Of a stretch of 11,070 nucleotides of DNA, positions 1 through 10,013 are shown one piece after another. The stretch is from assembly GCA_030590525.1 (NCBI GenBank), contig JAUUYI010000038.1:1-11070 (forward strand), in the 5' to 3' direction. The notes under the pieces were generated by a model. It was not told where the DNA came from. It saw only the letters and a program-made list of their open reading frames with translations, and searched no databases. Every line of letters begins with the position of its first letter. Position 1 is the first letter of the stretch. The position numbers and the translations under genes are program-made. Origin of the DNA: Sedimenticola sp. (GTDB lineage Bacteria; Pseudomonadota; Gammaproteobacteria; Chromatiales; Chromatiaceae).

Positions 1-1030
1 GCAGGCTGGTGATGCCCTTGTCGGAGTTCACCATCGCCAATTCAGGTCGCTTCGTATAACAGGCCTGGATGTCCGCCTCGATTGTGGCCCGCTGGTCTTC
101 CGGCAGGCCCTCTATCTTCGCATAGAGATCGCCCAGTCCATTGTTTGGGTCGACACCCAGTTGATCAAAGACAGCGGCATGCTTATCAAATACGTCCTCG
201 AAGAATACGGAGAGCACTTGACCGAAGATGATGGGGTCGGAGACCTTCATCATGGTAGCCTTCAGATGCAGGGAAAACAGTATCCCCTTCTCTTTTGCAT
301 CTTCTATCTGTTGTTCGAAAAAAATACGCAATGCGCGCTTGCTCATGTAGGTCGCATCGACCACTTCGCCGGCCAGAAGAGGATAGGTATCCTTGAGAAC
401 CGTCACCTTCCCTTCTGCATCGACAAACTCGATCCGAACATCCATCGCTTCACCGACCGTGACCGATATCTCGTTGGAACGGAAATCGCCACTTGTCATG
501 CTAGCCACATGAGATTTCGATTCTGCACTCCACTCCCCCATGGAATGCGGATGTTTCCTGGCATAATTCTTGACCGCGGCAGGCGCCCTGCGGTCGGAAT
601 TTCCTTCCCGCAACACCGGGTTCACGGCGCTCCCCAGCACCTTGGCGTATCGGGTTTTGATCTCACGCTCCGGGTCGTTTCGAGGATCTTCAGGATAGTC
701 CGGAATAGCGTAGCCTTGTGACTGTAACTCCTTGATTGCAGCCTTCAACTGTGGGATAGAGGCACTGATGTTCGGCAGCTTGATAATATTGGCCTTCGGA
801 TCCTGGGTCAGCGCACCCAATATGGCCAGATCATCGGACTGCCTTTGACTCTCCGTCAGATTGTCCGGGAAATTGGCGATGATCCTGCCCGCGAGGGAGA
901 TATCCCTGGTTTCGATGTTGATACCGGAACCTTGGGCAAACACCTTGATGACAGGGAGAAACGAGCACGTCGCCAATGCGGGCGCCTCGTCGGTTATTGT
1001 GTAGATGATCTTCGGTGTCTGGTCTGTCAT
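1..1030 (-). CDS. idh: Monomeric NADP-dependent isocitrate dehydrogenase, N-terminal 343 residues (3' end outside window)
   Basis: The frame is open from ATG at 1030 to the left edge. The family is about 740 residues, so roughly half is visible. The enzyme interconverts isocitrate and 2-oxoglutarate + CO2 with NADP in the cytosol. The translation carries the family's isocitrate-binding stretch: Ser134, Asn137 (GSAVNP), Arg141 and Arg147 ([11 protein letters not shown]). Recalled numbering for the Azotobacter enzyme is S132/N135/R139/R145, a constant offset of two. The same offset places the conserved lysine at Lys257 ([10 protein letters not shown]). The AG-rich stretch GAGAAAG just before the ATG supports the start. 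It lies downstream of aclA-aclB on the same strand, with a MITE-like element between. In Chlorobium a monomeric IDH is used for 2-oxoglutarate carboxylation in the reductive TCA cycle; the same role here is inferred from context. GC in hand-counted lines is near 45-62%, mostly lower than in the neighbours. Confidence 0.95.
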
Positions 1031-1104
1031 GTCTCTTTCTCGATTCGTGGCTGAAGGTAGCTGTTCAACATTATCCGTGGGTTGGGGTGGCTATGGGATG
1101 TTAG

Positions 1105-1365
1105 CCCGCATTTCTCACCAGGACGACGAGCCCTCGCTTGATCTTTGAATCCACAAGAAATTTTCCTCAGGTCGCTTCCGGCATCTGCCGTACAGGGATG
1201 TACCAATGCCGCGAGTGCAGGATGCACAGGAGCGGCCTGCCTCCCGCGACACTTGTACTTCCGTGTACGTCGTCAGAAATACAGCCCGTATTCCGCTCCT
1301 TCGGAAAATCCCTTGTGAATCCAAATCTCTGCGCGATCATCCCGCCCCCTGGTGAGAAATGCGGG
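1105..1365 (-). mobile_element. MITE-like element, complete copy (261 bp, 18-bp TIRs, TTAG target duplication)
   Basis: The ends are an 18-bp perfect inverted repeat, CCCGCATTTCTCACCAGG at 1105-1122 and its complement at 1348-1365. Both ends are flanked by the direct repeat TTAG (1101-1104 and 1366-1369), as expected for a 4-bp target duplication. No transposase is encoded; short ORFs through it look accidental. Inside lies a second, imperfect inverted repeat (1144-1166 with 1303-1325). A diverged relative occurs at 10901-11070 in the same orientation, so this is a dispersed family. The size, TIRs and lack of coding capacity fit a miniature element moved in trans. CC-starting ends with a 4-bp duplication would fit an IS1380-like transposase, but I cannot confirm the family. 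The left-hand TTAG ends three bases from the aclB stop codon, so the element fills most of the aclB-idh spacer. The orientation given (-) is the strand on which its RNA pairs best. Confidence 0.85.
1144..1325 (-). repeat. Inner imperfect inverted repeat of the element; can form a long stem in minus-strand RNA
   Basis: The arms are 1144-1166 and 1303-1325, 23 nt each, with 136 nt between. They match at 19 of 23 positions. All four mismatches become G-U wobble pairs when read as minus-strand RNA and A-C mismatches when read as plus-strand RNA. The minus-strand transcript, which is the aclB-to-idh direction, could therefore form an uninterrupted 23-bp stem. The loop holds the motif GAAGGAGCGG just inside the 5' arm (minus-strand sense), which the second copy shares. 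Whether this structure acts as a terminator, processing site or nothing at all cannot be told from sequence. Confidence 0.7.
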
Positions 1366-1372
1366 TTAGGGC

Positions 1373-4102
1373 TCATCCGACATAACTGCACTTGCTGGCC
1401 GGGGTTCGGGTATCCATGTTACGACCCCGGTTGGTATGGTCGTCGATCTCAGCAGCGGAGCCGATCATCCGCCCGAACAGGAAGGTTGTAAAGGCTGCTG
1501 ACTCCATCACCCGCTCACTGATTTCCCCCGCCATATAGGGTTTCCACAGCATCTTGAGCAGAATCACTGCGATTACCGCATCCACATTCACGCAGTAGAC
1601 AGTGCTGCTGACCCCGACCCGGTACAGGGCCTGCACCAGCTCATGGTAGAAGTCTAGAAACACGTTGTAGCTGCCTCTTTTGCTGAACAGTTCGTTGACG
1701 AACACCTCGCGGGGATCGTAGTTGACCGACTCCCCCTTGAACACCGGGTGGTTTATGCAGGGGATCTTGGTGTAGGTGATGTCACCCTCCGCCTTGGCCC
1801 GCTGCTTGTAAGCCAGATACTCCATGGCGTAATCGGTGGCCATCTGTTTCAGATCCAGACCGTGCTCCCGGGAGCCCGGATTGTTCAGTCCGGAGTCACG
1901 GAAGCGCTTCAGCAGGAAGGAGATCGCCTCGAAGCCATTGCCGCCGTGGGCGAAACCGGTGTGGGTGAGAAAACCGATGTAGCCCTTGTTCACCTGCACT
2001 CGCTCAGGGGCCTCCGGCCCGTCGGCACTGACCGCCCCCTTGGTGCCCTGAGCGGAGATGGTGCCCGGACCGTTGGATATGATCAACCCCAACAGTACCG
2101 AGAAGGCGAACAACGCCTCCTTGTCCGGACGATTCCCCAGCAGTGCCAGATGGGCCGTCTCGGTAAAACTCCACTGCTCCAGCAACTGCTGCTCCGGCAC
2201 ACCGCAGAAATCGCCTGCGGTCTGTTGTGCACTCTCTGCTGCCGACCCCACCAGGGCACTGTATATACGGAAGTGCCAGGGGAGATTCCGCAGGGTGAAG
2301 GCAGATATCCGTTTGCGCATCAGGGCCGGCCAGCCGAGGTGGCAGCTGATGGCAGCCAGTACCACCTGGCCCCGCAACGCCCGCCCCTCCTGCCTCGCCA
2401 GCGCCTTGAGAAACTCGAGGAAGACAGACTTTGCCCCCCGGGCAGCGACGGCGTCGAGCATGCTGTTACCACGGGCACAGGCCATTTCCGAGAGCAGCAG
2501 GCCGGCGGCCTCACCGCTGCCCGCCGCTTCCAGCTGGGCAGAGAAATCGAATGCCGTATCGGAAGGATCTTTCAGGCCACTCTTCTTGAACAGCTCCATC
2601 AGGAGCACCGCCGCCTGACGTGACGCATCCACCTCGTTAGGCCCCAGCACCGCGACCGCAGCAGTAAGTGCGGTATTTGGGCTGCTACCCGCCTGGCGAG
2701 CCGCTTCCACGGCGGTCAGCCCGATGTTGCCACTCTGGTTGACAAAGGCGTTCAGCGCCACGTTGGCCAGGGGCGTACCGTTCAGATCCGGATACTCCCG
2801 GATCAGACTCTGAACCAGATTCTCCTCGAATGTATGAGTGGAGGCATCCAGTACACTGGTGCCATGAATCCGGGTAACCTGGCTCTTCGGGTCCATCAGG
2901 GAGGCGCCGGAGGCATCCTTCATCATCTGTCGAGGAAATACCGCACCCACCTGCTCTCCAAGCCCGGCGATCTGATCGTTATAGGGTGAAACCGCATCCA
3001 CTACCGGCAGATTCAGCTGATCCGGCAGCTTCAGCCCCTGAGGATTATTGAACCAGCACTTGAGGGAGAGGTCCCCCCGGGATTCGAAGTCGGGCTCCAG
3101 GCCACGTTTTGCCATCACTGCAGTCATGGCAATCGGAATATGGGAGAGGTTGGTTACCACTGCCCCCTTTTCAGAACAGACCGGGTTCTCCGGGGTAAAC
3201 ACCTCATCCACCCCGAATTCCCGCATGAACCACTCCTCTTTGGCCGCGGCACTGTCGCCACTCCCGGCGATGGCTCCCGCATGCCCGCATGCCCTGGTCA
3301 GCTTTGCCTTCCAGCGGCCGACCACACAAGCCACCACTGGCTTATCGAACGCCAGGCCATGCTCATAATAGCCGCCCGGCTCGATGTACATCACCGCCGC
3401 CCGAGAACGATCATCATTGTGAAAGGCGTGGGCCCATTCCGGAGCCGAGTAGTGGATGTAGACATCCTTGCCAGAGGAGAGGGAGACGGTGGTGCCCCAG
3501 CCGGCGGTGAGTAGATAGACGGCGATGGTGGTGGTGAAGTTTCCGGAGTTGGAAAAAATGGCGACCGAACCCGGCACCAGGGACTCTTCCGGGCTGCTGC
3601 CACCCAGGGCACCACCGATCCGTATGCGGTTGTGGGCATCGGCGATACCCAGGCAGTTGGCCCCGAAGATATCGATACCGCGCATCTGACCGATGGCGCG
3701 AATCACCCGGGCGTCACGCACCGGCACCTTCTCGGTCAGGATCACAATCTTTCTCAGACCCGGATTGATCCGTACCACCTCCAGCACCCCGTCCCGCACC
3801 CCGGCCGGCGGCAGATAGACCACCGCCACATTGAACTGGTGCCCGGCCTCCATTGCCTCCGCCACATTGTCATAAACAGGTATCTCTCCTGCCGCTGTCT
3901 TAATACTGGTTCCGGAGCGCCCCGGTGCGGTACCGCAGACGACATTGCCACTCGAGAAGGCGTGGCTGACCGGGGTGACGCTGCGGCTCTCACCACCGGT
4001 GATGTTGAGCACACAGACCCGGTCCTCCGGGGTGGAGAGTTCTGCCAGCGAGTCGATACCGACGTAATAATGGGGAAAAGCAGCTACACCTTGGGGATGC
4101 AT
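1373..4102 (-). CDS. aclB: ATP-citrate lyase, large (beta) subunit AclB, type II form
   Basis: With AclA, it should cleave citrate with ATP and CoA to acetyl-CoA and oxaloacetate, the key reductive TCA step. I take ATG 4102 as the start (909 aa): AAAGGG lies 7 nt upstream, while the in-frame ATG at 4138 (921 aa) lacks a good ribosome site. Residues 1 to about 335 resemble succinyl-CoA synthetase alpha: GANCLGI (147-153), FSNSGNFT (183-190), and GHAGAI (273-278) with the phosphorylated His274. The rest is citrate-synthase-like: HGG at 719 (AHGGNGFEA), NHPVFKG...NYDPRE with His785 (compare GHRVYKNYDPRA), NVD with Asp841, and an Arg-rich tail ending YVG like a citrate synthase C-terminus. Type I AclB is about 600 aa; the surplus is residues 350-650, which partly repeat the later module. 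It follows aclA after a 110-bp spacer. The substrate assignment rests on pairing with aclA; a related citryl-CoA enzyme is less likely. Confidence 0.92.
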   Translation of the reverse strand: MHPQGVAAFPHYYVGIDSLAELSTPEDRVCVLNITGGESRSVTPVSHAFSSGNVVCGTAPGRSGTSIKTAAGEIPVYDNVAEAMEAGHQFNVAVVYLPPAGVRDGVLEVVRINPGLRKIVILTEKVPVRDARVIRAIGQMRGIDIFGANCLGIADAHNRIRIGGALGGSSPEESLVPGSVAIFSNSGNFTTTIAVYLLTAGWGTTVSLSSGKDVYIHYSAPEWAHAFHNDDRSRAAVMYIEPGGYYEHGLAFDKPVVACVVGRWKAKLTRACGHAGAIAGSGDSAAAKEEWFMREFGVDEVFTPENPVCSEKGAVVTNLSHIPIAMTAVMAKRGLEPDFESRGDLSLKCWFNNPQGLKLPDQLNLPVVDAVSPYNDQIAGLGEQVGAVFPRQMMKDASGASLMDPKSQVTRIHGTSVLDASTHTFEENLVQSLIREYPDLNGTPLANVALNAFVNQSGNIGLTAVEAARQAGSSPNTALTAAVAVLGPNEVDASRQAAVLLMELFKKSGLKDPSDTAFDFSAQLEAAGSGEAAGLLLSEMACARGNSMLDAVAARGAKSVFLEFLKALARQEGRALRGQVVLAAISCHLGWPALMRKRISAFTLRNLPWHFRIYSALVGSAAESAQQTAGDFCGVPEQQLLEQWSFTETAHLALLGNRPDKEALFAFSVLLGLIISNGPGTISAQGTKGAVSADGPEAPERVQVNKGYIGFLTHTGFAHGGNGFEAISFLLKRFRDSGLNNPGSREHGLDLKQMATDYAMEYLAYKQRAKAEGDITYTKIPCINHPVFKGESVNYDPREVFVNELFSKRGSYNVFLDFYHELVQALYRVGVSSTVYCVNVDAVIAVILLKMLWKPYMAGEISERVMESAAFTTFLFGRMIGSAAEIDDHTNRGRNMDTRTPASKCSYVG

Positions 4103-4212
4103 AATAGGGCCCTTTCTATCTTGCCGCCCTCTGCCCATAGCGGACTGGCGGCCGTTCCACGAACACCTCTGCAGGAGGGGATGAAAAACCTTCAGCGGTC
4201 ATCTTTGTCAAT

Positions 4213-5484
4213 TCAGCTGATCCCAAGCCTTTGCGCCAGCTGTTCCCGACCACCGCCGGCCATCCAGAGATCTGTCGCCTGAGCGAAGCTCACCACCTCG
4301 CTCATGGCCGAATCATGGCCAAACATCTGGTAGGGCAGCCCCAGGGAATCCAGGGTGTCACGCAGATAGCCCATCCCACGAATCAGATTAGGACCGCCCC
4401 TTCCCACCACCACGTAGAGGGGCCGGGGACCATAGGTGTTGAAGTAATCCCGCAGAGCGTCCGCCATGGCACGGAAGGTCTCATAGATATCCGTGTTGTT
4501 GGCCTTACCACCGATAATAAACAGTACGTTGGACTGCTCCAGCCAGTGCTTGTAGACGATTCGACTGATGTCGTGCATCTTGGCATAGGGCGGATTGCCA
4601 CCGAAATCGGAAGAGATGGTGGCGCTATTGCCCAACAGTTCGGTGACCAGGGCGTTGGCCCCGCCACCGAAAGTCATGGCGGTGATAGTGCCCTGTTCAT
4701 TGATCACGTAGACATCGGACTGCCCCTGGTAGGTACGCAGCTGATTCACCTCCTGCTCAAAATCCGAGTAACTGGAGGCATCCAGATCCGCCGGCAGGCC
4801 AAGGCGTTTCCAGTTGGGGTCATCCTCATCCAGGGCGCACTTGAAATCACAAGCGACTGGCAACAGCCGCCCGTTGCTACCAGGCGACATACGGATCGGG
4901 TTCAGCTCCAGGGTAGTCATTCCATAATGGTGGTACAGATCCCACAGCTTGGGCAGGTACTGAACCAGTGGACTGATCAGTTCACGGGGGGCCTTCAGCC
5001 GCTTGAGGGCAGTGGAGATCACGAAGCCCTTGAGCCCGGTAAGGGGGTCGAATGGAATGCGGGCGACCTTCTCCGCCGGCAGTTCCTCCACATCCATGCC
5101 CCCATAATGGGTGATGGTGATAATGGGTGCCCGGTACTCGGTACTGTCGGTGATAGAGAAATAGATCTCGTTTTCCGCCGGCACCGCCCCCTCGAAGGTG
5201 ACCCCCTCTGCCTTGTAGAGGGTATTGTTGTGAAAGTGCTCGGCAAAATAGAGCCGCGCCTTCTCCTTCATGGCAGAGCCCACGTCTCCGGCCCGGCCCA
5301 GCAGCCCCGCTTTACCCTTCTTGCCCACGCCACCCTTGAACATGGGTTTGATGAATACATCCCCGTGACGCTCGATCAAACCTTTGATCTGATCTGCGCT
5401 GGCTTCCGGGCCCAACACCTCGGCAGCGGGAAACTCCACTATACGGAGGAGTTTGGCACCCCAGTACATTCCTGTGATCTGCAT
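4213..5484 (-). CDS. aclA: ATP-citrate lyase, small (alpha) subunit AclA
   Basis: This 423-residue cytosolic protein matches the A half of ATP-citrate lyase, which binds ATP-Mg and citrate. Residues 1 to about 245 form an ATP-grasp-like, succinyl-CoA-synthetase-beta-like region. It has a Gly/Lys-rich loop (FIKPMFKGGVGKKGKAG, 44-60) and LELNP (192-196), where Glu193 should bind Mg; Asp213 is a likely second ligand. Residues 260-423 are the CoA-ligase-like domain: TFGGGANAL (271-279), IGGKANNTD (324-332), VGRGGPN (360-366) and a FGHDSAM segment (388-394) typical of citrate-binding AclA rather than SucC. GGAAGG lies 8 nt before the ATG. It follows hemY by 69 bp on the same strand and precedes aclB, so transcription from the hem block or from its own promoter are both possible. 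A sucCD pair is rejected because the partner has a citrate-synthase-like domain. Confidence 0.94.
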   Translation of the reverse strand: MQITGMYWGAKLLRIVEFPAAEVLGPEASADQIKGLIERHGDVFIKPMFKGGVGKKGKAGLLGRAGDVGSAMKEKARLYFAEHFHNNTLYKAEGVTFEGAVPAENEIYFSITDSTEYRAPIITITHYGGMDVEELPAEKVARIPFDPLTGLKGFVISTALKRLKAPRELISPLVQYLPKLWDLYHHYGMTTLELNPIRMSPGSNGRLLPVACDFKCALDEDDPNWKRLGLPADLDASSYSDFEQEVNQLRTYQGQSDVYVINEQGTITAMTFGGGANALVTELLGNSATISSDFGGNPPYAKMHDISRIVYKHWLEQSNVLFIIGGKANNTDIYETFRAMADALRDYFNTYGPRPLYVVVGRGGPNLIRGMGYLRDTLDSLGLPYQMFGHDSAMSEVVSFAQATDLWMAGGGREQLAQRLGIS

Positions 5485-5527
5485 CTTTTCGGCCTTCCGT
5501 TTTCGTTAACCGTTTCCACCGTGGCAT

Positions 5528-5553
5528 CGATCAGTATGCACCTTTCCTGATCG
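5528..5553. promoter_or_regulatory. Inverted repeat in the hemY-aclA spacer, possible operator or hairpin
   Basis: Perfect 7-bp arms, CGATCAG (5528-5534) and CTGATCG (5547-5553), are separated by 12 bp. They sit directly after the hemY stop codon and 44 bp before the aclA start. No T-run follows, so it is not a classical intrinsic terminator. Its position, at the only break between the tetrapyrrole genes and the citrate lyase genes, makes a regulator site or RNA hairpin plausible. No convincing -35/-10 pair was found in this 69-bp spacer. Confidence 0.3.
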
Positions 5554-6858
5554 TCACGACCTGGGTTTGGCAACCACTTCCAGCTTGGGCGGATTTATAT
5601 CCTCGTGGTAGGCAATCCCCTGATCCCCGTCGATCTGCCCGGCGGGGCCGGGAACGGCCGGCAGTCCCGGTGGCGATGAGCCACTGGCGAGCTCGAGACC
5701 GGCCCGAAAGCAGGAGAGCGCCTGCGACTGCTCTCCGATCTGCTCCAGCAGTATCCCCAGATCCCGGTAGGCCTCTGCAGATGGCCCTGCCCCGATACTC
5801 GCCTCCAGGTAACTGCGCGCCTTGCCCCACAGGCGGTTTCGAATACACAGCCGACCGAGCGCAAGCAGCAGCACCGGGTCATGGGGGTGCTCCTGCAGCC
5901 AGGTCTCTGTATGGGAGAGTTGCTGGGCACCGTCACTGCCACTCACCTGACCATAGAGTGCCACCAGATCCGGGCTCCAATGGTTGTTGATGGCATCCAG
6001 CAGCAGTGCCGCTACCTGTTCCTCCTCGCCCAACTCCTTCAGATAGCTGGCATAGAGTATCACCAGTCCCTCGTCGTTTCGGGCGGCAACCGGCAGCGCC
6101 CTCCAGGCTGCCGCCAGCTGACGGTTTTCGCCACTGATGGCGGCCTGGTCCAACAGGCTGCGAAACAACCTCAGTTCCAGCCGCAGCGCCTCCTCCCGGG
6201 GGATCACCTTGCGTCGCTTCAATACCGGCAGCAGCTTTCCCAGCTCATCCCATCTGCCTGTCCGCTGATAAATCTCCTTCAGCATCGCCAACACCTGAGG
6301 GTGCCGGGGTGCGATCTCCCGTAACTGCCCCAGCGTTTTCAGCGCCTGCTCCAGCTCATTGTGATCCAGCTGCAGTTCCGCCCGGGTAAGCCCCACTGCC
6401 ATCTCCGCCGCAGGCACCCGTTCCCGGGCCAGCTTCAGATAGTGATCACGTCGCTCATCCGCACCCTGCTGCTGGGCAGCACGTGCCGCTGCCAGGTAGT
6501 TCAGCAGCGGCGTCTCCGATAATCCGGCATATCTGAGCAGATCCTTCTCGGCTCGCTTCCACTGCCCCTCCGAGAGCTCCAGCAAGCCTCTGGTCAGAGC
6601 CTTCTGCGCCCGCTGGACACCCCGCTGTGCCTGCCACTGACGCAGACGGCCCGGTGCCGACCAGACACGGGCCGTCAGCCTGACCAGTAGATACAACAGC
6701 ACGAACAGTACGAGATTGAGCAGCAGAACTAAGGCCAGGCTCGCCTCCACTGTCCAGTTGCCGAAACTGATCAGCACATAGCCATTGTCCTGCTTTACCG
6801 CCAGTGCCAGAAACACCGAGGCAGCCACCACCAGCAGGCCGATGATCAGGCCTTTCAT
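5554..6858 (-). CDS. hemY: HemY-type membrane TPR protein of the tetrapyrrole operon
   Basis: This 434-residue protein has two N-terminal membrane segments (about 3-21 and 39-61). A long helical, TPR-rich region follows (about 75-390), with repeats such as GLLELSEGQWKRAEKDLLRY and AYRDLGILLEQIGEQSQALS. It matches the proteobacterial HemY family found after hemX. That family is not the Bacillus protoporphyrinogen oxidase of the same name. Its exact job is unsettled; a scaffold or assembly role for heme synthesis at the inner membrane is the usual proposal. The start ATG overlaps the hemX stop (ATGA, 6855-6858), so the two are translationally coupled. The last 40 residues are Pro/Gly-rich and look disordered, which makes this protein slightly longer than many homologues. 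It is the last tetrapyrrole gene before aclA. Confidence 0.9.
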   Translation of the reverse strand: MKGLIIGLLVVAASVFLALAVKQDNGYVLISFGNWTVEASLALVLLLNLVLFVLLYLLVRLTARVWSAPGRLRQWQAQRGVQRAQKALTRGLLELSEGQWKRAEKDLLRYAGLSETPLLNYLAAARAAQQQGADERRDHYLKLARERVPAAEMAVGLTRAELQLDHNELEQALKTLGQLREIAPRHPQVLAMLKEIYQRTGRWDELGKLLPVLKRRKVIPREEALRLELRLFRSLLDQAAISGENRQLAAAWRALPVAARNDEGLVILYASYLKELGEEEQVAALLLDAINNHWSPDLVALYGQVSGSDGAQQLSHTETWLQEHPHDPVLLLALGRLCIRNRLWGKARSYLEASIGAGPSAEAYRDLGILLEQIGEQSQALSCFRAGLELASGSSPPGLPAVPGPAGQIDGDQGIAYHEDINPPKLEVVAKPRS

Positions 6859-8063
6859 TGCGCGCCTCCCGTTTCACTCTGCTCGCCTTTCAGACGCTTG
6901 CGCAATGCAATCAAGGAACCCGATATGTTGGGAACGACCGGTTTTAACCGCTCCTGCTGCAACTTGTCCAACGCCTCCAGCATCACTCCGGTGCCCACCT
7001 TTTTCGGGTCAAAAAACTCCTTCAGCGATCGGGCGGCGACCTGCAAATGCTGTTGGAACAGCGCCTGATCCTGCAGCAACAGCGCCAACCGGGCTGACTG
7101 CAGTTGCAGACGCAGATTCTGACGCACGAAAAAGTGCTGTTCCGGCGGCAGTGTGGCTGCCATCGGCGTACCCTGGCGCCGGATCACCACTACCGACTTG
7201 AAGCCCTCCCAGGCGTCCTGCAGCAGGGTATCCAGATCACGTTCCTCCGCTTCGACACCCCCAGTTTCTACCGGCAGAGCCGGTAACGTCTCGGATCTGG
7301 CACCGGACCCAGGCATCACCAGCAAATCCACCTGCTGCGCCAACCCCGTGAGTTGCGCGGAGAGGCCCGCCAGGTCCGGCAGTTGCACCCCTTTCAGGTG
7401 ACTGATCTCCGTGGCCAGCAGTTCCCGCACTCCGATCCAGCCCGGATCACCACTGTCGCGCAACCGGGCATCCGCTGCCTGCAGTGCCAGAATTGCCGCC
7501 GGCACATCACCCGCCAACTGCAGCCGGGTATTCGCCACCTGCATCAGGTAATCCGCCTCGGCCGCCACCCATCGGTCACTGTCGCTTCCGATCCGGCGAC
7601 TCATCGCCTCCAGGGCGTCCCGCATCTCCAGGCTACGCCGCTGCTCATTCTCACGGGTCTGCTGCAGCTGAAACCGCTCTTTTTCCAACTGCGAATTACC
7701 CTCGGCAAAGCGCTTTTGCTCGGCCTCCAACTGCTGTGCCCTGCTATCGAATGCCTGGCGCACCGACGCCAGACCAGCCTGAAGTTCGGCCCGCTGCCGG
7801 GCGCTCTGATCGACGCGCTGCCCTACCCGGGCCAGCTCTCCCTCCATTCGCTGCCACTGCTGGTATCCGACGGCGAGACCGCCTGCCACCAGCAGGAGAG
7901 CCATTAGAGAGAAGAAGAGAGCGAATCGTCGCCTGCCCTTTCGGCCCTCTCCGGGCGGGACAGGGATCTCCCGGACCTCCGCATCTTCGACCCGCTCCGC
8001 ATCGATATCGATCTCCTGCCGGGTCTCTTCCAGCTCCGCATCCTCTTTTGCTCTCTCACTCAT
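6855..8063 (-). CDS. hemX: HemX family membrane protein of the tetrapyrrole operon
   Basis: The 402-residue protein begins with an acidic cytoplasmic segment (1-40) and a basic patch (RKGRRR). One membrane helix follows (about 47-67), then a long coiled coil (about 70-160), then a C-terminal domain. The layout and conserved stretches (AEADYLMQVANTRLQLAGD, RQNLRLQLQSARLALL) are those of the HemX family. That family is often labelled uroporphyrinogen-III C-methyltransferase, but I see no methyltransferase fold, so that label should not be used. The role is unknown; it is probably a membrane partner of the heme pathway together with HemY. The start at 8063 is preceded by GGAAAAAAG. Unusually, it is separated from hemD by 211 bp rather than adjoining it, and a candidate promoter lies in that gap. 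Confidence 0.9.
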   Translation of the reverse strand: MSERAKEDAELEETRQEIDIDAERVEDAEVREIPVPPGEGRKGRRRFALFFSLMALLLVAGGLAVGYQQWQRMEGELARVGQRVDQSARQRAELQAGLASVRQAFDSRAQQLEAEQKRFAEGNSQLEKERFQLQQTRENEQRRSLEMRDALEAMSRRIGSDSDRWVAAEADYLMQVANTRLQLAGDVPAAILALQAADARLRDSGDPGWIGVRELLATEISHLKGVQLPDLAGLSAQLTGLAQQVDLLVMPGSGARSETLPALPVETGGVEAEERDLDTLLQDAWEGFKSVVVIRRQGTPMAATLPPEQHFFVRQNLRLQLQSARLALLLQDQALFQQHLQVAARSLKEFFDPKKVGTGVMLEALDKLQQERLKPVVPNISGSLIALRKRLKGEQSETGGAQ

Positions 8064-8122
8064 CCGCTTTTTTCCAGTTTACAGCACCGTTTTCCGATCG
8101 ATTGCCCCATAAAAACATGTAA

Positions 8123-8151
8123 CTTATCAATAACCCGTGAACCCGTGGCAA
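8123..8151 (-). promoter_or_regulatory. Candidate sigma70 promoter for hemX-hemY
   Basis: On the minus strand, TTGCCA (8146-8151) and GATAAG (8123-8128) are separated by 17 bp, about 60 bp upstream of the hemX ATG. The -35 hexamer is 5/6 and the -10 4/6 against consensus. The same -35 hexamer occurs in the better hemC promoter. Part of the spacer and -35 overlaps a small hairpin (ACCCGT/ACGGGT, 8141-8157). The prediction is by eye only. Confidence 0.35.
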
Positions 8152-8197
8152 ACGGGTAGACCCGGTGATGGGTGAACCGAGGCCACGGCCTGTCCGC

Positions 8198-8247
8198 TGC
8201 GAGCGTCCTCCCAAGACCAATAGAACAGGATAACTCGAGCGCTCGCA
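8198..8247. repeat. Inverted repeat in the hemD-hemX gap
   Basis: Perfect 8-bp arms, TGCGAGCG (8198-8205) and CGCTCGCA (8240-8247), are separated by 34 bp, starting 27 bp past the hemD stop. No T-run follows on the minus strand, so it is not a standard intrinsic terminator. It could be a weak stem-loop 3' of hemD. The rest of the 211-bp gap holds the candidate hemX promoter and no coding sequence I would defend. Confidence 0.3.
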
Positions 8248-8274
8248 AGCACCTCTTCTCTGACAGACCAGGAC

Positions 8275-9042
8275 TCAACCGCTCCGCCACCTGCAGATCG
8301 CCTCCAGAATGGAATGGTCGTCTGCCCGCAGTGCCTGCAGCAGCCGTCGGCAACCGAGTGCCTCGGCCCGCTCCCGCATGCGCTCCGAGATCACCACCAG
8401 TGGGGTGTCCCGTAGTAACCCGGAACCAGACTCACCCAATAGCGTGAGCAGATTCTCCAGGAGTTCGACACTGGTGGCAGTCACCACATCCACCTCGGAG
8501 CGCCAGCGCCCGATCAAGGGCCCCGCATCCACCTGCGGACACTGCCGCCGATAGACCCCCGCATAGCTCACTCCGGCGCCCCGGGCGGCCAGGGTCTCAC
8601 CCAGCATGGCACGACCAATCTGACCACGAAAGATAAGAATGCGGCGCCCCGCCACTGATCTCATCGCCGGCATTGCCAACAACCCCTCGCTGTCATAGCG
8701 CTGTTCGGGAAAGATGTCCACCGGTTGCCCGGCAGCGGCCAGAGCGCGGGTGGTACCCTGCCCCACGGCAGCGATCAGAATCGACCCGGGCAGGCATCCG
8801 TCCGGCAGCAGTGGAAGACCTCGGGTCACTGCATTCGGGCTGATGAAGATGGCCATATCGAAGCGAGCGATGGACGCCAGCAGTCGCTTGACAGCAGCGG
8901 GATCAGCGGGCCCGGTAATCTCGAGCGCAGGGAACCGGAGCGCCCGTCCCCCATGCGCATCGATCAGGTGACACAAGGCAGCAGCCTGGTGCTCGGTGCG
9001 GGTGACCAGTACCCCGGCACCCGCCAGTTCACATCCGGTCAT
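8275..9042 (-). CDS. hemD: Uroporphyrinogen-III synthase
   Basis: This 255-residue cytosolic enzyme closes hydroxymethylbilane into uroporphyrinogen III, inverting ring D. The family is weakly conserved, but the pattern fits. There is an N-terminal GVLVTRTEHQA strand-helix, an IFISPNAV segment (about 89-96), the YDSEGLLA region (about 130-137), and a second Rossmann-like half with TATSVELLENLL and LVVISERMRERA. The length is typical. It begins 6 bp after the hemC stop, the usual hemCD arrangement. No strong ribosome site precedes ATG 9042, so translation is probably coupled to hemC. Identification rests on position as much as on sequence. Confidence 0.93.
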   Translation of the reverse strand: MTGCELAGAGVLVTRTEHQAAALCHLIDAHGGRALRFPALEITGPADPAAVKRLLASIARFDMAIFISPNAVTRGLPLLPDGCLPGSILIAAVGQGTTRALAAAGQPVDIFPEQRYDSEGLLAMPAMRSVAGRRILIFRGQIGRAMLGETLAARGAGVSYAGVYRRQCPQVDAGPLIGRWRSEVDVVTATSVELLENLLTLLGESGSGLLRDTPLVVISERMRERAEALGCRRLLQALRADDHSILEAICRWRSG

Positions 9043-9048
9043 AGGTGG

Positions 9049-9978
9049 TCACGACTGGTAAAGCCGCTTCAGGATCTGATCGGCACCCTGTCCCAGCAGA
9101 TCTTCCGCCAGCGCAGTTCCCAGCTCCTCCGTTTCCCCCACCGGACCCGTCAGTTCAGCCCGTATGATGCAGCTGCCATCCGGCTCCCCCACCAGACCAC
9201 GCAGATAGATCCGGTCATGATTGAGTATCGCATAGCCACCTATGGGGACCTGGCACCCCCCCATCAACCGGCGGTTCATGGCCCGCTCAGTCAGAACGCA
9301 GGCCGCGGTCTCCCTGTCGTGCAGCGGCTCCAGCAGCCGGTTGACCCGCAGGTCATCCACCCGACATTCGATGCCAATCGCCCCCTGACCAATGGCCGGG
9401 AGGCTCTGATCCGGCTCCAGCAGATCCGCGATACGATCCTGGAAACCGAGCCGCTTGAGCCCTGCAGAGGCGAGGATGATCCCGTCGTATTCCCCCTCAT
9501 CCAGCTTGCGCAGCCGTGTATTGACATTGCCGCGCAGGGAGCGGATCTGCAGATCCGGACGCCGCTCCCCCAGCTGGCACTGACGACGCAGGCTCGAGGA
9601 GCCCACCACCGCCCCCTGAGGCAGTTCATCCAGCTGACTGAATCGGTTGGAGACGAAAGCATCCCGGGGATCCTCACGCGCCATGATCACCGCCAGATGC
9701 AGCCCCTCAGGCAATTCCACCGGGACATCCTTCATGGAGTGCACGGCGATATCCGCCCGCCCCTCCAGTATCCCCTGCTCCAGTTCCTTCACAAACAGCC
9801 CCTTGCCACCGATCTTGGCCAGGGGGGTATCGAGGATCTTGTCGCCCTGGGTACTCATCCCGAGGATCTCCACCTGCAGCCCCGGATGGGCCAGCTGCAT
9901 CTGGCGAGAGACATGCTCGGCCTGCCACATGGCCAGGGGTGATTTGCGGGTGGCGATACGGACGGGCTGATCGGACAT
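9049..9978 (-). CDS. hemC: Hydroxymethylbilane synthase (porphobilinogen deaminase)
   Basis: It polymerises four porphobilinogens into hydroxymethylbilane. From ATG 9978 the protein has 309 residues and begins [20 protein letters not shown]. This start is preferred over ATG 10002 because GGGAG/CAGG precedes it and it gives the family's usual length and numbering. Key features are [18 protein letters not shown] with the catalytic Asp84, and [10 protein letters not shown] and [14 protein letters not shown] for cofactor and substrate binding. [11 protein letters not shown] contains Cys242, the dipyrromethane attachment site; both positions match recalled E. coli numbering. It heads the hemCD unit, with a good promoter 36 bp upstream, and lies downstream of the algR-type regulator as in many gammaproteobacteria. 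Confidence 0.97.
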
Positions 9979-10013
9979 GTAACCTGCTCCCGGTAGAGTC
10001 ATTGAAAGCAGGA

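Follow-up and report, generated by a model that had tools for sequence, protein, structure and literature searches.

The window analysed here – the whole of an 11,070-nucleotide stretch from Sedimenticola sp. (contig JAUUYI010000038.1 of GenBank assembly GCA_030590525.1) – carries genes for both subunits of what is by sequence a type II ATP-citrate lyase (ACL), followed by part of a gene for a monomeric NADP-isocitrate dehydrogenase (IDH). It makes up an entire contig (C19) of a draft genome of 2.34 Mb in 389 contigs that is 70% complete. All of the listed genes are coded on the minus strand, as seen from the open reading frames and Pfam matches (Table 1). An earlier note on this DNA had described aclA, aclB and idh on one strand directly after hemC-D-X-Y, an arrangement that open reading frames, Pfam and NCBIfam bear out, with idh partial. 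The idh gene runs off the window edge from position 1030 and encodes 343 residues, compared with 742 in the related Sedimenticola sp. CSMAG_2797 (the sister genome); because the window is a whole contig, we attribute the truncation to assembly. The truncated product scores 571 bits against TIGR00178 (model positions 1–343 of 744, NCBIfam), which is below the whole-protein cut-off of 950 because the gene is cut.

Table 1. Features of the window, with positions counted along its 11,070 nucleotides.
Feature	Position	Strand	Basis
Large ACL subunit (AclA), 921 aa	1373..4138	-	Listed full-length homologues; loci in named genomes
Citryl-CoA synthetase alpha-like part, aa 1–320, H286 in CGHAGA	3179..4138	-	6hxq_A, 140 bits
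Second lyase-like domain, most lyase residues lost, aa 434–640	2219..2839	-	hhalign
Citryl-CoA lyase domain, lyase residues intact (H731, H797, D853, others), aa 645–921	1376..2206	-	hhalign
Small ACL subunit (AclB, bacterial convention), 423 aa: ATP-grasp and citrate-binding parts	4213..5484	-	Pfam
Monomeric NADP-isocitrate dehydrogenase, first 343 residues	1..1030	-	TIGR00178
hemC-hemD-hemX-hemY, upstream neighbours of acl	5554..10002	-	Pfam; membership in acl system not supported
hemY	6858-5554	-	Pfam
hemX	8063-6855	-	Pfam
hemD	9042-8275	-	Pfam
hemC	10002-9049	-	Pfam
LytTR response regulator	10889-10152	-	Pfam

A 913-aa protein of Magnetococcus massalia carries the label 'type II ATP citrate lyase AclA', and by that label the larger subunit is AclA and the smaller AclB; if the letters in the earlier note were assigned by gene order, they were swapped. 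The true start of the large subunit probably lies 12 codons further in, at the second Met, which would give a protein of 909 aa as in the four closest homologues.

The small subunit matches both Citrate_bind (67.4 bits, cut-off 26.8) and ATP-grasp_2 (49.3 bits, above its cut-off) in Pfam. Its nearest solved relative is the large subunit of citryl-CoA synthetase (124 bits), followed by 'Citrate lyase, subunit 1' (82.4 bits) and human ATP-citrate synthase (63.8 bits), with the best succinyl-CoA synthetase structure at 33.6 bits. A 24-sequence profile of the large subunit compared with the PDB gives a similar order for the N-terminal third, with the citryl-CoA synthetase 6hxq_A ahead of succinyl-CoA synthetase (111 bits); 6hxq_A, the closest chain, spans one third of the protein. 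Among the matches listed, 120 homologues share 65–91% identity with the large subunit over 98–100% of its length, and the match is thus not a chance one; identity is 77% to the protein of the tubeworm symbiont Candidatus Endoriftia persephone and 68% to the type II AclA of Magnetococcus massalia. A scan of named genomes yielded at least 394 relatives among 584 candidate stretches, of which the best 80 were kept, and in 76 of these 80 loci a small subunit 66–94% identical to that of the window adjoins the large one. H286, which we take to be the phospho-histidine of the synthetase alpha part, is conserved in all rows of a 198-row alignment consisting of the window protein, the 120 listed homologues and 77 of the 80 loci. 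The locus thus shows homology of both subunits to type II enzymes, citrate-binding and synthetase parts, and a lyase domain with conserved residues, and we assign the pair by sequence to type II ACL. The earlier suggestion of a type II ACL with a monomeric IDH of the reverse tricarboxylic acid (TCA) cycle kind is borne out by Citrate_bind, the homologues and TIGR00178.

Several scores pull the other way. The best NCBIfam models of both subunits are succinyl-CoA synthetases, library models find the lyase domain weakly (PF00285, 21.4 bits with a cut-off of 27; the citryl-CoA lyase model NF004869, 26.5 with a cut-off of 212), and the type I ACL chains score low: the beta-subunit 6hxj_A reaches 29.5 bits with the small subunit, less than the one succinyl-CoA synthetase above, and the alpha-subunit 6hxj_B 48.7 bits with the large-subunit profile. 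On these grounds the pair might be a divergent acyl-CoA synthetase, for succinyl-CoA or another product, and not cleave citrate at all, but we consider this extremely improbable. The succinyl-CoA synthetase scores (beta 57.8 bits, alpha 123.2) lie far under their cut-offs of 375.55 and 336, and Citrate_bind is above its own; both subunits have citryl-CoA synthetase as their nearest solved relative, and the synthetase part is followed by a lyase domain in which the lyase residues are invariant. The earlier note had named clustering with succinyl-CoA synthetases among the outcomes that would refute it, and no such behaviour was observed in Pfam, NCBIfam or structure matches.

The large subunit is considerably longer than its type I counterpart, with 921 aa compared with 617 in 6hxj_B, and the difference lies beyond the synthetase part, where 619 residues face 328 (about 290 more, taken from the ends of the structure matches). 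These extra 300 or so residues appear to be mostly a second citryl-CoA-lyase-like domain placed ahead of the intact one. Comparison of the middle (aa 330–640) and C-terminal (aa 645–921) profiles of the 198-row alignment by hhalign gives 96.2% and a score of 69.8 over 206 columns (aa 434–640 against 655–902). None of 60 column shuffles scores above 25.7, and the controls with the reversed profile and the N-terminal third give 15.3 and 12.7, so that the middle domain is not supported as a copy of the N-terminal part. For an outside comparison 18 citryl-CoA-lyase-like proteins were taken from the 20 top-scoring loci and kept for a GxGH motif, and the histidine is therefore present in 18/18 by choice; because only one of the 249 genomes searched has a match above the family cut-off, the set is mostly 'lyase-like'. 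The C-terminal part matches these proteins at 96.1% with a score of 69.8 and the middle part at 51.1, with 60 shuffles of the middle part at or below 21.2 and the N-terminal third at 17.1. Compared with 14 citrate synthases, the C-terminal part has a score of 48.3 and the middle part one of 15.95, which is chance level, and a citrate synthase identity for the middle domain is unsupported.

Nine positions of the C-terminal domain (H731, G732, G733, H797, D808, R810, N851, D853 and R890) are invariant in 198/198 rows and agree with most lyases. This invariance is partly by choice in the loci, because G[YF]AHGGNG was one of two search patterns, and the nine positions are also present in 120/120 homologues that were not picked by that pattern. 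The middle residues opposite them are, in order, E502, V503, D504, a gap, C554, R556, R589, Q591 and A628, so that the middle domain of the window protein keeps one of the nine (R556). Other rows retain lyase residues in part, with D at 591 in 39/198, D at 554 in 29/198 and R at 556 in 114/198.

The middle part could instead be an unrelated linker or regulatory domain that matches lyase profiles by accident. It has no Pfam assignment in the window protein; Pfam makes a weak Pyridox_ox_2 call in six of 24 large subunits (place within the protein unspecified), and the absent citrate synthase match and the largely lyase-like composition of the comparison set point the same way. The resemblance also fades with fewer sequences: against the C-terminal part the middle profile scores 69.7 when built from 25 gammaproteobacterial rows, 64.9 from 21 distant rows and 33.2 from the window sequence alone, and against the lyases 50.6, 36.7 and 32.4, respectively, the last two being weak for a dead lyase. 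But shuffled, reversed and N-terminal profiles fall well short of both full-profile matches, the C-terminal and lyase alignments agree on which middle residue faces which lyase residue, and the chain beyond the synthetase part is about 290 residues longer than in 6hxj_B; we regard an accidental match as improbable. The order of the large subunit thus reads as synthetase alpha part, dead lyase and live lyase. Fusion of ccsB and ccl into aclA in relatives is described in the accessible part of PMC5459899. A second lyase domain is unmentioned in the accessible portions of that paper and of PMC3522073, PMC6194059, PMC9802188, PMC11636981, PMC6783814, PMC5441870 and PMC6315080, and no earlier report was found in the open literature (mostly titles and abstract openings, exclusive of supplements and preprints), where one may nonetheless exist.

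These observations suggest a course for the reaction. Citrate and ATP would be bound by the small subunit, the first third of the large one would relay phosphate through H286 to yield citryl-CoA, and the C-terminal lyase domain would split citryl-CoA into acetyl-CoA and oxaloacetate, with IDH converting 2-oxoglutarate and CO2 to isocitrate. Citrate synthase fold enzymes act as dimers, and for this reason the most likely role of the dead lyase-like domain would be that of a structural partner paired with the live one.

A citrate-cleaving enzyme and IDH are the reverse TCA cycle enzymes detected at the locus by sequence matches, and the remaining evidence on carbon fixation comes from the rest of the draft genome. 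A search with PF00016 for RuBisCO found no match in this 70%-complete assembly, and the catalytic half was not found. The absence of RuBisCO is nevertheless rejected: contig C212, aligned to the RuBisCO contig of the sister genome, ends inside a form II gene and has a 119-residue open frame that scores 213 bits against NF010002 (positions 1–119 of 459) and 112 bits against the RuBisCO N-terminal domain. The sister gene is whole, at 459 aa. A two-subunit 2-oxoacid:acceptor oxidoreductase (KorAB-like) is present, with alpha at 509.7 bits (subfamily cut-off 482.75) and beta at 229.4 (261.9), and a PorA/PorB-like pair lies on a separate contig; scores in this family do not tell the substrate, and a four-subunit KorABCD was not identified among four POR_N matches, as judged by their family scores. 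A TfrA-like flavoprotein is 43% identical (436 bits) to the TfrA of tubeworm symbiont G021, and there are more distant flavoproteins too, although the identity search does not tell ordinary succinate dehydrogenase apart from these. A 76-residue stretch resembling the end of DsrA lies at a contig edge, with 64.6 bits, under the family cut-off. The dual-pathway organism proposed in the earlier note is thereby supported in part: the look-up in the same genome that it called for returned form II RuBisCO as a fragment, together with these KorAB-, TfrA- and DsrA-like pieces, and phosphoribulokinase and a symbiont-like TfrA were not found, so that the support extends to RuBisCO and not to a complete cycle of either kind.

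Some of these results count against a reductive pathway. The 70%-complete genome has no PF00485 phosphoribulokinase match, nor has the sister genome (84% complete); no flavoprotein was seen in it at 54–100% identity, the level of TfrA in other genomes, and it has one ordinary citrate synthase. The organism might thus be a mixotroph or heterotroph in which the lyase supplies acetyl-CoA from citrate or accompanies an oxidative TCA cycle, with no net fixation by the reverse cycle and RuBisCO fixing CO2 if anything does. The failure to find symbiont-type TfrA and a whole reverse-TCA cluster fits such a role, and so does monomeric IDH, which commonly serves in oxidative metabolism too. But citrate synthase is found in all nine ACL-bearing genomes of the family, tubeworm symbiont G021 included, KorAB-like and TfrA-like proteins are present, and the symbiont of E. 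laminata strongly expresses both pathway sets according to the accessible text of PMC6315080; this alternative is rather doubtful. We infer a reductive direction and an active enzyme, and with a probability of roughly 0.8 we read the locus as encoding reverse TCA cycle enzymes, a type II ACL and a monomeric IDH, in an uncultured gammaproteobacterium that is Sedimenticola-like and carries form II RuBisCO.

Phosphoribulokinase is present in six of the nine ACL-bearing family genomes, the others being the window's own, the sister and G013. Both genomes of the window's genus therefore have form II RuBisCO without a phosphoribulokinase match, in assemblies that are 70% and 84% complete, and its absence from the two may be a chance effect of incompleteness.

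RuBisCO was searched in 50 of the best 80 genomes and found in 21, and phosphoribulokinase was searched in 21 of those 50 as well as in the window's own genome and G032. An mdh-acl-idh arrangement, with a malate dehydrogenase gene (mdh) upstream of acl, occurs in ten loci. Two of these, L130 and that of the sister genome (L076), fall on the window's branch of the AclA tree – a quick tree of 57 rows with SH-aLRT support only – and are RuBisCO-positive. The other eight Sedimenticola-like genomes (L086, L087, L091, L096, L097, L104, L117 and L118) have neither a RuBisCO match (0/8) nor a phosphoribulokinase match (0/8), and phosphoribulokinase is found in seven of the nine RuBisCO-positive genomes searched, the misses being the window's genome (its fragment counted) and the sister. 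Seven of the eight RuBisCO-negative genomes are in the AclA tree, from which L091 dropped out, and they form two separate groups of two and five rows with SH-aLRT of 100. TfrA is present at 54–57% in seven of the eight, and in the L087 genome the only matches are a piece at 49% and a paralogue at 43%.

One of the eight, Sedimenticola sp. HyVt-446 (G013, locus L096), has a known completeness, of 95%; it has no dsrA above the cut-off. Weighing against a true absence, the family genomes G006 and G010 and the genome of L112 have phosphoribulokinase and no RuBisCO match, and since these keep phosphoribulokinase and the window's own RuBisCO gene is cut, gaps in the assemblies probably account for some of the RuBisCO misses. 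The open literature, as represented mostly by titles and abstract openings apart from supplements, yielded no report of ACL in Sedimenticola-like genomes free of RuBisCO, although one may exist. A broader proposal joins two parts: that the type II large subunit is a fusion of synthetase alpha, pseudo-lyase and live lyase forming a self-made pseudo-dimer, with half of the lyase folds in the holoenzyme inactive, and that in two or more Sedimenticola-like AclA lineages the reverse TCA cycle is the sole route of CO2 fixation, in place of the Calvin cycle. We hold the chances for and against this joint proposal to be evenly balanced. In Sedimenticola sp. HyVt-446 a 123-aa open frame with no Pfam match lies between aclA and idh (L096:8805-9176).

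Large-subunit matches and the AclA tree both place the organism as Sedimenticola-like. The nearest named large subunits, among the best 80 of at least 394 relatives, are those of Sedimenticola sp. CSMAG_2797 (91%), which belongs to the window's genus in the genome search classification, and S. thiotaurini HyVt-443 (80%), followed by tubeworm symbionts. Close matches (63–100%) are present in nine of 34 family genomes, the window's own included, and the remaining listed family matches are 25–35% identical, chiefly over the synthetase part. The best 80 include records titled Gammaproteobacteria, Sedimenticola, Magnetococcales, Thiomargarita, Nitrospinae, Nitrospirae, Deltaproteobacteria and others; the earlier attribution of the type II enzyme to tubeworm symbionts and Magnetococcus is correct for both and too narrow. 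The L086 and L118 records are titled Candidatus Polarisedimenticolaceae (classified under Acidobacteriota), and their AclA is very close to that of Sedimenticola sp. records; the titles may be a name mix-up.

Neighbouring genes were counted over the best 80 loci in flanks of at most 6 kb, many of them ended by contig edges, and the counts are for that reason lower bounds. Monomeric idh is present in at least 30 of the 80 and a malate dehydrogenase of the sister type in at least ten, and hemX/hemY adjoin acl in one, that of the sister genome. The attachment to a hem block claimed in the earlier note is thus local, and a functional tie between hem and acl is unsupported. Gene order in the sister is hemX-hemY-mdh-aclB-aclA-idh, and the window lacks mdh between hemY and aclB (window 5485–5553): position 5535 of the window corresponds to 7740 of the sister and position 5578 to 8933, and about 1.19 kb of the sister, containing mdh, is swapped for about 42 bp. 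Because ten loci from several AclA branches have mdh ahead of acl, the window's lineage more probably lost the gene here than the sister acquired it.

The aclA-idh gap (window 1031–1372) exceeds that of the sister by about 270 bp, and pieces of it (69 bp at 96% and 99 bp at 87%) recur on contig C229 of the same genome; this is probably a dispersed repeat. Two short repeats in the sister (L037:6326-6563 and 6591-6669) recur at many places in the window's genome, on 24 and 12 contigs, respectively, among the matches listed.

As a find of genes, the locus is ordinary: a known enzyme type, in a known setting, with a known pairing. The accessible parts of PMC6315080, PMC3522073 and PMC6194059 describe the pairing of Calvin and reverse TCA cycles in tubeworm symbionts, PMC6315080 a reverse-TCA cluster holding aclAB and idh, and PMC3522073 proteomic and enzymatic work that backs the Endoriftia pathway. 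Since aclBA-idh together with RuBisCO is already published for tubeworm symbionts, the window is a further case of a known arrangement. Two extensions beyond the earlier note are worth following. One live and one dead lyase domain would offer a testable reason for the size of the large subunit, with specific residues named, in a widespread enzyme with at least 394 relatives that was still termed 'postulated' in the accessible text of a 2019 paper (PMC6783814). Relatives that have the enzyme and no RuBisCO or phosphoribulokinase matches provide a comparison with dual-pathway tubeworm symbionts on the purpose of the second pathway; if the reading holds, these RuBisCO-negative Sedimenticola-like lineages would be gammaproteobacteria with the reverse TCA cycle as their sole means of CO2 fixation.

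Among known systems, the tubeworm symbionts (Candidatus Endoriftia persephone and kin) resemble the window in large subunits that are 75–77% identical, in having idh directly downstream of acl, and in having RuBisCO in the same genome; they differ in that flx-hdr-like electron-transfer genes lie upstream of acl where the window has hem genes, and in their type of TfrA, which was not found in the window's draft genome. The sister genome shares hemX-hemY, the aclB-aclA-idh order, 91% identity in the large subunit and form II RuBisCO (whole in the sister), but has mdh between hemY and aclB and the shorter aclA-idh gap. The postulated type II ACL of Magnetococcales has large subunits about 66–70% identical to that of the window, although the 50 genomes searched for RuBisCO include 17 titled Magnetococcales, none of them with a match, and monomeric idh was not seen in the fetched flanks.

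Type I ACL (6hxj, presumably from Chlorobium limicola) matches the window in the synthetase alpha part, and its chain presumably likewise ends in a lyase domain, but the extra length of the window protein holds the second lyase-like domain. The system in which citryl-CoA synthetase and citryl-CoA lyase are separate proteins is alike in that its synthetase comes closest, among solved structures, to both synthetase parts, and in that the lyase domains align to lyase-like proteins; in the window, by contrast, the synthetase alpha part and two lyase domains are joined in one chain.

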